A stretch of DNA of 64,000 nucleotides from Kiloniellaceae bacterium (GTDB lineage Bacteria > Pseudomonadota > Alphaproteobacteria > Kiloniellales > J153), in contig JAJFGL010000002.1 of NCBI GenBank assembly GCA_021776135.1, positions 62,001 to 126,000 on the forward strand, given 5' to 3'. Shown here piece by piece: positions 4,935 to 7,945 of the stretch. The notes beneath the pieces were generated by a model, which did not search any database, was not told the DNA's origin, and saw only the letters and a list, made by a program, of their open reading frames with translations. Within the stretch, counting starts at the first letter, position 1; each line of letters begins with the position of its first letter. The position numbers and the translations under genes were made by a program.

Positions 4935-6563
4935 TCAATCCTCCCGCGCCACGAAGTCGAGCGATTGGCGGGCCGTGCGCAGGGTGAAACGGCGTTTGAT
5001 CGGGGTGTTGAGAAGGCGGTTCACGGCCGCCAGAAGATCGCCGCCCCAGGGCGCTTCCGGCGCCGCCAGGGCTTCCTCGCGCGCCGCCATGAAGGTTTTG
5101 ATCTGATGGGCGGCGACGATGTATTCGAATTGCCCGTGGTCGAAAAGGCGGTCGGCGGTAGCCGCGAAAAAGGCCTCCGGCTCCTCGACCCGCCAGGGCC
5201 CCGTGTCCAGATCCTTGTCCACATAGGCGGCGTTGCGCCCGATAAAGCAGGCTATTTGCAGCAAACCTTGGGGCCACAATTCAGGGGTGCGGCCGCACAG
5301 GCGGCGCACCGCGTTGGCGAAGGTGAGCGCGTGGGTGAAGTCGAGCCAGCCGACATTGTCGGATATCGGCCCGTCGTTGCGTGCTTCAACCGCGCGGTCG
5401 AAGTGCAGCAGGTTCCAGGCGGCGGCGCCCAGCAAGGCCTTATAAAGCCCTTGAGGGTCGCCGGCGAAGTCGAGGCAGCGCTCCAAGGCCCCGCGCACCC
5501 CCTGGCCGATGAAATCGGCCGCCGCGGGGGCCGTGTTCTTGTTCTTAACCCGCGCCGCTTCAGGCCAGGCGTCTAGAACCCGCCCATAGTCCTTGAATTC
5601 GGGAATCAGATCTTCGCGGCTGGCGTAAATGAGCGCGCGCACCAGGGCCTGCAGCAGGGCTTCGCTCACCTCCGGGCCCAGATGTTCGATCAGTTGGCCC
5701 GTCTTCAGGACATAAATCGCTGAATGGCCGAAATCGGCGTAGTGGGCCAAGGCCGCGCGCGCCAGGACGCCTTCCAGATCGGCATAACTCAAACCGGCGG
5801 ACAGGGCGCCGCGCACTTGCGCGCAGGCCGCCGCCTCGTCCTCGTCCTCGATCGCCGCGACCAGGAAATCCGCGCTGTAGGCCGTCACGCCTTGGAGATA
5901 GGGGAAAGACGGCTGGCGCAGGGTATCCCAGGCCATGTGGCCCACTACCTCGACCAGCGGGGCCAGGCTCAGAACCGGATCGCCGCCCGCTTTTTCGGCC
6001 CGCAAGGCCAGCCAATCCGCAGCGGCGGCATAAGCATGGGTCGTGCCGAATTCGAGCCGCTCAAAGGTCCAGCCGATAGCGGCGCGCACGGCGTCCAGGG
6101 GGTCGCGCCCGGCGCGGGTCAGGCGGGCGATCTCGCGCGCCATGCGGTCGGTTTCGTGATCGGGGAAGCTTTCCGCCAGGGCGGCCAGGGCCGCTTGTGC
6201 ACGCTCACGCGCCGGGGGATCGCTGGGGTCCAGCCACAGCTTGCCGTCCCTAATCTCAAGCGGATAGCGGCGCAAGCGGTCGCCGCCGACCAGGGTCTCG
6301 CCGCTCTTCAGATCGAATTTCCAATTGTGCCAGTTGCAGGTCAGCAGGCAGGCGCCGGTGCCGCTTTGGCTCAGAACGCCCTCGCTTAAGGGGAAGCCTT
6401 CGTGGGGACAGCGGTTGTTGCAGGCATGAAACCGGCCCGCGCTATCGTGAAATAACGCGATTTGCTTGCGCCCGAGTTTGATCGTCAGAACGCCGCGTTC
6501 GCGCAGCTTGGCCAGATCGGCGACCTCTACGAAGGGGTCCGTACCCGGGGTTTCCCTGGACAT
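4935..6563 (-). CDS. Rieske [2Fe-2S] protein fused to a large helical domain of unknown function
   Basis: A 542-residue protein. Residues about 10-112 form a Rieske domain with cluster ligands C52-x-H54 (CPHEG) and C76-x2-H79 (CNWHNW), the short-spaced dioxygenase/ferredoxin-type arrangement. There is no signal peptide, so it is cytosolic. Residues about 115-542 are predicted largely helical and carry scattered histidines (176, 209, 274, 280, 294, 387, 411, 476, 486) in segments such as HYADFGH, WLDFTHAL and FDHGQFEYIVAAHQ. These could bind a metal or organic substrate, and there is a vague resemblance to questin-oxidase-like proteins. A GGAGGG ribosome site precedes the ATG. It is divergent from a SufR-like regulator across a strongly symmetric operator. 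Function not recognised; an oxidoreductase fed by the Rieske cluster is my inference. Confidence 0.8.
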   Translation of the reverse strand: MSRETPGTDPFVEVADLAKLRERGVLTIKLGRKQIALFHDSAGRFHACNNRCPHEGFPLSEGVLSQSGTGACLLTCNWHNWKFDLKSGETLVGGDRLRRYPLEIRDGKLWLDPSDPPARERAQAALAALAESFPDHETDRMAREIARLTRAGRDPLDAVRAAIGWTFERLEFGTTHAYAAAADWLALRAEKAGGDPVLSLAPLVEVVGHMAWDTLRQPSFPYLQGVTAYSADFLVAAIEDEDEAAACAQVRGALSAGLSYADLEGVLARAALAHYADFGHSAIYVLKTGQLIEHLGPEVSEALLQALVRALIYASREDLIPEFKDYGRVLDAWPEAARVKNKNTAPAAADFIGQGVRGALERCLDFAGDPQGLYKALLGAAAWNLLHFDRAVEARNDGPISDNVGWLDFTHALTFANAVRRLCGRTPELWPQGLLQIACFIGRNAAYVDKDLDTGPWRVEEPEAFFAATADRLFDHGQFEYIVAAHQIKTFMAAREEALAAPEAPWGGDLLAAVNRLLNTPIKRRFTLRTARQSLDFVARED

Positions 6564-6579
6564 AATTCCGCCCTCCTAG

Positions 6580-6647
6580 TTTATAAAGGTTATGCTTTCA
6601 AAATAATATGACCGGCCAGCTTGTTTTGAAAGAAGAAACTTTATAAA
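6580..6647. promoter_or_regulatory. Symmetric divergent operator between the Rieske gene and its regulator
   Basis: Two 24-base arms, 6580-6603 and 6624-6647, are reverse complements at 21 of 24 positions with a 20-base spacer; the dyad axis is at about 6613.5. Each arm contains a TTTATAAA core and a TTTTGAAAG block. The right core lies in a perfect 16-base palindrome, AAACTTTATAAAGTTT (6636-6651). The left core touches the GGAGGG ribosome site of the Rieske gene. The right TATAAA could serve as a -10 element. Binding by the adjacent SufR-like protein is an inference from position. Confidence 0.75.
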
Positions 6648-6688
6648 GTTTGTGCAGCCAATAAACACCTAAGCGAGCACATGCGCCC

Positions 6689-7348
6689 ATGGAAGCCACG
6701 ATCAATCGGCAAAAGACCGGCACCACGCGCCGCGCCCTGTTGGAGCGCTTGAAACGCGGCGGCGCGCAGGAGGCCGGGGCGCTTGCCGAACGCCTGGGGG
6801 TCACCGCCATGGCGGTGCGTCAGCATTTGTATGCCCTGGAGGCCGAAGACATCGTCGCCGCGACCCCGGAGGCGCGCCCCCTTGGCCGTCCGGTCAAGCT
6901 CTGGGCCCTGACCCCAAGCGCCGCGCCCTTTTTTCCCGACGGGCACGCGGACCTTACCCTCGGCCTTCTCGATGCCATGAACGATGCCTTCGGCGCGCAA
7001 GGGTTGGATAAGTTGCTTGCCGCGCGCACGGCGGCTCAGGCGCAAGCCTATAAAGCACGGGTCGACCCGCATGAATCCTTGAAGCGGCGCCTGAAGGCCC
7101 TGGCGAAAATTCGCAGCGAGGAAGGCTATATGGCCAAGGTCCGGGCCCTCGGCCAGGGTGAATTCCTCTTGATCGAAAACCACTGCCCGGTTTGCGCCGC
7201 CGCCCGTGCCTGCCGGGGCCTGTGCCGGGGTGAATTGGATTTATTCCGCGAGGTTCTGGGCCCCGGCGTTAAGGTCAAGCGGGTCGATCACATCCTGACC
7301 GGCGCCCGGCGCTGCAGCTACCGGGTGCGGCGGGTCAAGGAAGCCTGA
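6689..7348 (+). CDS. SufR-like HTH repressor with C-terminal cysteine cluster
   Basis: A 219-residue DNA-binding protein. Residues about 12-75 form a winged helix-turn-helix (LAERLGVTAMAVRQHLYAL, then a GRPVKLW wing). The C-terminal part (ENHCPVCAAARACRGLCRG and HILTGARRCSYRV) has Cys166, 169, 175, 179 and 209. This is the layout of SufR/COG2345 regulators, which hold an Fe-S cluster and repress Fe-S genes. It is divergent from the Rieske gene, so a redox- or iron-responsive repressor of that gene and of itself is the simplest model. The DNA-binding fold is well supported; the Fe-S cluster is inferred. Confidence 0.85.
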   Translation: MEATINRQKTGTTRRALLERLKRGGAQEAGALAERLGVTAMAVRQHLYALEAEDIVAATPEARPLGRPVKLWALTPSAAPFFPDGHADLTLGLLDAMNDAFGAQGLDKLLAARTAAQAQAYKARVDPHESLKRRLKALAKIRSEEGYMAKVRALGQGEFLLIENHCPVCAAARACRGLCRGELDLFREVLGPGVKVKRVDHILTGARRCSYRVRRVKEA

Positions 7349-7354
7349 GCGGCC

Positions 7355-7945
7355 TCACTCGGTTAACCCAGCGATCCGGGCGCGCAAATCGGGCAGCAAA
7401 TCGGTTTCGAACCAGGGGTTCTTTTTCAGCCACGACGTGTTGCGCCAGCTTGGGTGCGGCAGGGGGATGATACCGGGGCCGTATTCGGCCCAGGCGCGCA
7501 CGGTTTCGCTCAAGGTCTTCTTGCGCCGCTGGCCCAGGTAATGCGCTTGCGCATAGAGGCCGATGAGGAGTGTGAGTTCGATCTTCGGCAAGGCGCCCAA
7601 GACCTTTGGGTGCCAGGCCGGCGCGCATTCGGGGCGCGGCGGATTGTCGCCGCCGCGCGCAGAGACGCCGGGGTAGCAAAATCCCATGGGCAGGATGGCG
7701 ACCCGCGCCTCGTCGTAAAAAGTGTCTTTGTCCAGGGCCAGCCAATCGCGTAGACGATCGCCGGAGCGGTCGTCCCAGGGCACCCCGGATTCATGCACTC
7801 GGGTGCCCGGCGCTTGCCCGATAAGGATCAGGCGCGCGGCCGCCTTGGCCCGCAGAACCGGCCGGGGGCCAAGCGGCAAATGCGCCGCGCAAAGGGTGCA
7901 GGCCCGGGCCGCGCGCAGGGTCTCTTCAAGGTTCGATTCGTTCAT
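7355..7945 (-). CDS. Uracil-DNA glycosylase family protein
   Basis: A 196-residue cytosolic protein of the UDG superfamily. It has C-x2-C near the N-terminus (CTLCAAH), the active-site-like loop LIGQAPGTRVHESG, and the distal PLPHPSWRN motif. The short CxxC pair is less than the four cysteines of family 4/5 enzymes, so it fits the 'uracil-DNA glycosylase family protein' group of unknown specificity. Removal of damaged bases is presumed. Its ATG overlaps the stop of the sirtuin gene (ATGA), so the two are translationally coupled. Confidence 0.82.
   Translation of the reverse strand: MNESNLEETLRAARACTLCAAHLPLGPRPVLRAKAAARLILIGQAPGTRVHESGVPWDDRSGDRLRDWLALDKDTFYDEARVAILPMGFCYPGVSARGGDNPPRPECAPAWHPKVLGALPKIELTLLIGLYAQAHYLGQRRKKTLSETVRAWAEYGPGIIPLPHPSWRNTSWLKKNPWFETDLLPDLRARIAGLTE

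Follow-up and report, generated by a model that had tools for sequence, protein, structure and literature searches.

Two conserved palindromic operators between a Rieske fusion gene and a divergent SufR-like regulator gene

The window, a 64,000-nucleotide stretch of DNA from a Kiloniellaceae bacterium, contains a Rieske fusion gene and a SufR-like regulator gene that diverge from a common spacer, and this spacer holds two short palindromic operators that recur with the same gene pair in related bacteria. Most likely the locus is a local repressor circuit of the SufR type whose operator differs and whose targets are unusual. Computation shows the two operators, how they are conserved and how they go together with the regulator. 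These results connect a repressor with an exporter and with an unusual fusion of the Rieske/questin-oxidase-like kind, which makes the signal and the substrate of the circuit directly testable.

Table 1 Features of the Rieske fusion/regulator locus, in window coordinates
Feature	Position	Strand	Basis
Rieske fusion gene, 542 aa	4935-6563	-	ORF
C-terminal all-helical domain, residues about 118-541	4941-6212	-	predicted fold, questin-oxidase/BTG13-type
Rieske [2Fe-2S] domain, residues 12-90	6294-6530	-	PF00355; C52, H54, C76, H79 invariant in 60 sequences
Ribosome-site-like AGGAGGG of Rieske fusion gene	6571-6577	-	sequence
Operator 1, Rieske-proximal, TTTATAAAG-GTTATG-CTTTCAAAA	6580-6603	none	12/12 fixed positions; same place in relatives
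Candidate -35 of regulator promoter, CTTG	6620-6623	+	inferred from logo
Operator 2, regulator-proximal, TTTTGAAAG-AAGAAA-CTTTATAAA	6624-6647	none	12/12 fixed positions; logo of 48 loci
Perfect 16-bp palindrome AAACTTTATAAAGTTT, over outer half of operator 2	6636-6651	none	sequence
SufR-like winged-helix regulator, 219 aa	6689-7348	+	ORF, profile match
Helix-turn-helix domain, residues 13-56	6725-6856	+	PF12840, 25 bits, below cut-off of 27
C-terminal cysteine region, C166, C169, C175, C179, C209	7184-7315	+	invariant in 39 sequences

Results

The spacer and its operators

The divergent genes are separated by 125 bases (6564-6688, 40% G+C). An earlier note on this DNA had described two 24-base arms here that match at 21 of 24 positions around one axis, together with a perfect 16-base palindrome; our recount reproduced the arms (operators 1 and 2 in Table 1), placed the axis at 6613.5 and located the palindrome. 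It had also called such symmetry rare by chance, and the best 24-nt inverted repeat in dinucleotide-shuffled spacers reached 19, with 21 or more in 0 of 1000 shuffles. A repeat search gave longer arms, of 34 nt with 79% identity. Palindromes as long as the 16-mer or longer arose in 8 of 2000 shuffled spacers. The left core, said to abut the Rieske ribosome site, comes close to it, with two bases between operator 1 and the AGGAGGG-like sequence. A terminator-like hairpin on the minus strand of the spacer, close to the regulator start (6670-6689), is probably a chance structure.

The earlier note overlooked that each arm is palindromic by itself. Both arms are copies of one 24-bp palindrome, TTTNNNAAG-N6-CTTNNNAAA, and carry all 12 of its fixed positions. 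The pair resembles a single long dyad in the window because each operator turns its TTTATAAAG half outward and its TTTTGAAAG half inward; the two TTTATAAAG halves, 60 nt apart, open a direct repeat. The 64-kb window held no further match to the pattern besides the two arms, and shuffled spacers gave it in 0 of 2000 cases.

The whole 3.96-Mb genome contained one exact match besides the two in the spacer, and a reversed control pattern had none. With one mismatch allowed there were 6 sites (3 of them exact) versus 7 for the reversed control, so at that stringency the pattern loses its information value across the genome. For the same reason the extra sites, including that at C34:76895, were not counted as regulon members, and a wider regulon in this genome was rejected. 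Control of suf by the regulator was likewise rejected, since the contig carrying sufB (C20) had none of the 6 sites with up to one mismatch. The sole other exact match (contig C34 of genome G000, 76895-76918, at about 1501-1524 of locus L068) lies between divergent ORFs named by eye as MFS-like (471 aa) and Crp/Fnr-like (231 aa); it could be an Fnr-type site or have arisen by chance.

Conservation across relatives

The C-terminal domain of the fusion protein served as query against a genome collection; 167 loci were confirmed, of which the best 80 entered the analysis. Many related bacteria share the divergent arrangement, with the same regulator divergently adjacent in 48 of these 80 loci. 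All 48 spacers contained a site matching at least 10 of the 12 fixed positions, compared with 0.8% of spacers shuffled by base composition and 2.8% (54/1920) of dinucleotide shuffles. Reading 400 nt upstream where the contig allowed, we found such a site in 4 of 28 evaluable Rieske-homologue loci for which no regulator was found (13/1120 in shuffles). The difference between 48/48 and 4/28 (Fisher p 5e-16, relatedness ignored) supports the earlier assignment of the operator to the neighbouring regulator. In three of the four regulator-less loci with a site, the contig reaches 112, 1353 and 1522 nt past the Rieske match on its upstream side and ends there. Four of the 32 loci without an adjacent regulator were left out of the 28, L108 because it had 3 bp upstream and L073, L087 and L114 because their regulator lies farther away; L073 and L087 carry an 11/12 site and L114 has none. 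On contig C110 of genome G033 (L013, L039, L073) the Rieske and regulator genes are about 3 kb apart, and an operator-like site is kept beside each (11/12 on the Rieske side, by eye on the regulator side).

An overlapping set of relatives gave a Rieske gene divergently adjacent at 26 of the 29 regulator loci examined, with G007 left out for its partial regulator. The genome-collection loci and the related-genome contigs overlap (e.g. L069-L071 and G001-G003), and the sets are not independent; a tree with long branches served as background only. The exact operator occurred in 10 of 26 related genomes, and 12 of its 15 sites were at the Rieske/regulator locus. The 3 exact sites away from the locus do not outnumber the 5 reversed-control matches. 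Records L134, L085, L127 and L131 are titled Mesoflavibacter, SAR324, Gammaproteobacteria and Asaia, with genes close to alphaproteobacterial ones, and some of them may be mislabelled or contaminated assemblies.

Two sites of at least 9/12 were present in 38 of the 48 loci, 38-53 nt apart, and in 41 when 40 nt more were read on each side; a single site was found in 10 loci, or 7 with the extra sequence. Across the 38 two-site loci, mirror identity between the paired sites equalled direct identity (15.9 and 15.9 of 24), and none reached a 21/24 mirror match. The 38 spacings showed no 10.5-nt helical phase (R 0.15 vs null mean 0.18). A palindrome of at least 12 at the half-site of the window's 16-mer occurred in 1 of 48 loci, a near relative, and a meaning for the 16-bp palindrome is therefore not supported. 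Equal mirror and direct identity, with no pair at 21/24, led us to reject the single-axis dyad as the functional unit. The conserved unit is two short operators and not one dyad; a striking long dyad can emerge incidentally from two short palindromes that are conserved. As for the inverted repeat that the earlier note expected in homologous loci, the operators are present there and the long repeat as such is absent.

Promoter geometry

In a logo of the 48 regulator-side sites, CTTG stands 3-6 nt ahead of the site with each base conserved in 33-35 loci, and these positions are outside those used for picking sites. Part of the conservation at the fixed positions follows from having selected the sites by that same pattern. 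TAGAAA closes the site, 17 nt from TTGNNT, which is the spacing of -35 and -10 elements. Operator 2 in relatives accordingly overlies the -10 of the putative regulator promoter together with the stretch between -35 and -10, and with this geometry (CTTG as -35, TAGAAA as -10) a bound repressor would cover that promoter. The window's CTTG is displaced by 2 nt from its position in relatives, and the proposed regulator promoter was absent from the output of a sigma-70 consensus scan. On the Rieske side of the spacer the logo of the 48 loci had no conserved -35. The SufR operator of S. avermitilis overlaps a -10 in the extract of PMC11995493, as we propose for the regulator promoter here.

The regulator

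The regulator matched TIGR02702 (SufR) across residues 12-212 (E 5e-31) with 108 bits against a cut-off of 178.8, and the description SufR-like in the earlier note holds with that qualification. Its five C-terminal cysteines were also invariant in an alignment of 23 sequences, and three of them form the pattern C166-x12-C179-x29-C209, invariant in 39 sequences. Redox sensing by the regulator is plausible given these conserved cysteines. In the extract of PMC6034842, C203, C216 and C244 are needed in Rv1460, the SufR of M. tuberculosis, and form C-x12-C-x27-C; the second gap is two residues longer in our regulator, which also has two further invariant cysteines (C169, C175).

Like SufR as portrayed in extracts of three papers (PMC8593673, PMC6034842, PMC11995493), the regulator combines an N-terminal helix-turn-helix with C-terminal cysteines including C-x12-C, and SufR is an autorepressor, as the present protein putatively is. 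The operators differ. The SufR operator is CAAC-N6-GTTG in the extract of PMC8593673; the sites here share the 6-nt palindrome centre and have AAG/CTT half-sites (TTTNNNAAG/CTTNNNAAA) in place of CAAC/GTTG. In the three papers, Synechocystis SufR (Sll0088) has one site for its target operon and one for sufR, which we liken to one operator per promoter. Besides falling below the TIGR02702 cut-off, the regulator departs from SufR in having a Rieske fusion gene as its neighbour instead of suf.

For the C-terminal domain of the regulator, Foldseek gave weak matches (TM 0.36-0.41) to sensor folds of the Bet3/TRAPP, H-NOX and MopR kinds, and structure comparison gave 7b6d_G at Z 11.5 over 135 residues, where the typical chance best is 7-8, or about 14 for mostly helical models. 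The MarR-type proteins MexR and MepR are winged-helix repressors that control efflux pumps. They aligned mainly with the winged-helix part of the regulator (Z about 11-12, about 70-110 residues), which differs from them by its separate C-terminal cysteine domain.

The Rieske fusion protein

Profile search found the Rieske domain that the earlier note had named (PF00355, 56.5 bits against a cut-off of 20.3), with its CxH...CxxH motif. No other region of the protein had a Pfam match over cut-off, and neither the fusion protein nor its family members matched a ring-hydroxylase catalytic domain in Pfam. Rieske non-heme iron oxygenase alpha subunits likewise have the Rieske domain N-terminal in a longer polypeptide; the fusion differs in having no ring-hydroxylase catalytic match and a C-terminal part modelled as helical. 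Seven residues of this C-terminal domain (H176, H274, H280, H411, H476, H486, K489) were invariant in 60/60 sequences.

The predicted model of the fusion protein (pLDDT 94.3, pTM 0.92) was searched as a whole, for which the typical chance best is Z about 14 in mostly helical models. Residues about 150-530 aligned with the questin oxidase BTG13 (Z 18.7, 330 residues), AflY (18.5, 334) and the hydroquinone dioxygenase PaD (16.1, 331). The PDB entries were 7y3y (Z 18.7), 8yxs (18.5), 8z4q (16.1) and 8z4r (15.3), over 318-334 residues, and they were the only non-Rieske entries among the 50 fold matches listed. Foldseek's 50 best matches to the fusion protein were all Rieske proteins.

Similarity in sequence to the questin oxidase family (PF14027) was weak. 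The PF14027 profile matched 0 of 21 fusion family members at E up to 1 and nothing in the genome of the window with an E cut-off of 0.001, and a PDB search with the C-terminal domain, run to E 1, gave no solved relative by sequence. Alignment by hhalign to six PF14027 members gave E 0.0037 at a probability of 9%, compared with E 0.66 for an unrelated control. The C-terminal domain and bacterial PF14027 members have FTHxxT and HxxK motifs in common, and HxxK is also visible in aligned BTG13 relatives. The iron ligands of BTG13 are four histidines and a carboxylated lysine. By eye, the invariant H176, H274 or H280, H411, H486 and K489 would pair with the likewise invariant H48, H138, H266, H334 and K337 of the six members, though only the last three positions fall within the hhalign-aligned stretch. 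The fusion resembles BTG13, AflY and PaD in predicted fold and bacterial PF14027 members in the FTHxxT and HxxK motifs, and differs from the family by the missing PF14027 match and the added N-terminal Rieske domain. Among the matches listed in the open-licence literature, no title described the Rieske fusion or its pairing with the regulator.

MFS transporter genes and other neighbours

Two of the exact off-locus sites, in genomes G049 and G059, lie just upstream of similar MFS genes (L151 and L152); they were singled out only for preceding similar genes, the likeness of L152 was judged by eye, and the third off-locus site is L153. The G049 gene resembles DHA2-type efflux pumps, below every cut-off. 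Among relatives of this transporter, 9 of 14 upstream regions had a site of at least 10/12, where shuffles predict 0.16; one of the nine (L166) is a run of A and T. The window's own genome had no match to the G049-type transporter at E 1e-60.

Regulators without a Rieske neighbour were also picked blind to their neighbours, and 3 of 9 face an MFS gene (L176, L178, L180), with a site in 2 of the 3. Four further MFS-facing regulators (L160, L167, L186, L187), chosen because the MFS search matched beside them, had a site in 3 of 4 cases. Where the regulator had neither a Rieske nor an MFS neighbour, 5 of 6 loci lacked a 10/12 site and the sixth (L177) had one, which is consistent with loss of the site alongside the target; not every relative of the regulator keeps the operator. 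Regulator homologues at L177, L181 and L182 lie beside an ORF judged by eye to be a DMT-type transporter, with no Rieske gene. L177 has one 10/12 site and the other two have none.

Discussion

Proposed circuit

We consider it probable that the locus is a local repressor circuit with two separate operators, one per promoter, in which the regulator represses both genes until a signal releases it. From the sequence patterns and predicted folds we infer binding as a dimer, repression, release by a signal and enzyme activity, as follows. A dimer of the regulator would occupy each 24-bp operator separately. On operator 2 it would mask the spacer and the -10 of the regulator promoter and so repress its own gene, and on operator 1 it would repress the Rieske fusion gene from just upstream of the ribosome site. 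Release would come from a signal on the cysteine domain. Most likely, as in SufR, a bound Fe-S cluster would be lost or oxidised; alternatively, an electrophile would modify the domain. The Rieske/questin-oxidase-like fusion would then be induced, and in some relatives an MFS exporter as well.

Alternative readings

The earlier note had favoured looping or cooperative binding on one long dyad; in such a reading two dimers would cooperate or loop across the axis at 6613.5. The 21/24 symmetry in the window is beyond chance, and two sites lie 38-53 nt apart in 38 of 48 loci, but these spacings follow no helical turn, paired sites are no more alike in mirror than in direct orientation, none of the pairs attains 21/24, and 7 to 10 of the 48 loci have a single site. 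We regard the extended dyad as unlikely; one operator per promoter is preferred because the spacing lacks phase and relatives do not keep the long symmetry about a single axis. Less likely still, the sites serve some other DNA-binding protein or are simply A+T-rich promoter sequence. They do overlap putative promoters, where other regulators could act, but the genome has one other exact site, a site is present in 48/48 pairs but in 2.8% of dinucleotide shuffles, and site presence is associated with the neighbouring regulator.

Within a local repressor circuit, the nature of the signal is a closer matter. Since one target is oxygenase-like and another an exporter, an electrophile or a substrate has to be taken seriously as the signal in place of Fe-S loss. 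There is a considerable chance that the regulator is a thiol, metal or small-ligand sensor and not an Fe-S sensor, and that its signal is a substrate, such as a quinone or another toxic aromatic, on which the oxygenase-like protein and the exporter act. Operators before DHA2-like MFS genes (9/14 upstream regions vs 0.16 expected), the 3 of 9 blind-picked Rieske-less regulators that face an MFS gene, and the names of the fold neighbours of the fusion's C-terminal domain (questin oxidase, hydroquinone dioxygenase) all point this way, as do the weak Bet3/TRAPP, H-NOX and MopR likeness of the regulator's C-terminal domain and its invariant C169 and C175, which are not part of the published SufR cysteine pattern. 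Against it, the three SufR-type cysteines are all kept, and chance alone typically gives a best fold Z of 7-8, or about 14 for mostly helical models. A more specific and tentative proposal is that the fusion is a self-sufficient oxygenase, with Rieske cluster and questin-oxidase-type iron site in one chain, the former passing electrons to the latter. The fusion and an MFS exporter could share one repressor of the SufR family, which would have acquired a new operator and departed from control of Fe-S biogenesis, in an inducible circuit for defence against, or catabolism of, quinones or other aromatics.

Downstream gene

A uracil-DNA glycosylase superfamily gene (7355-7945) is convergent with the regulator gene in the window. 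A similar coding sequence was seen by eye beside the regulator in other families (L008, L015, L017), and the linkage of glycosylase and regulator may be old.
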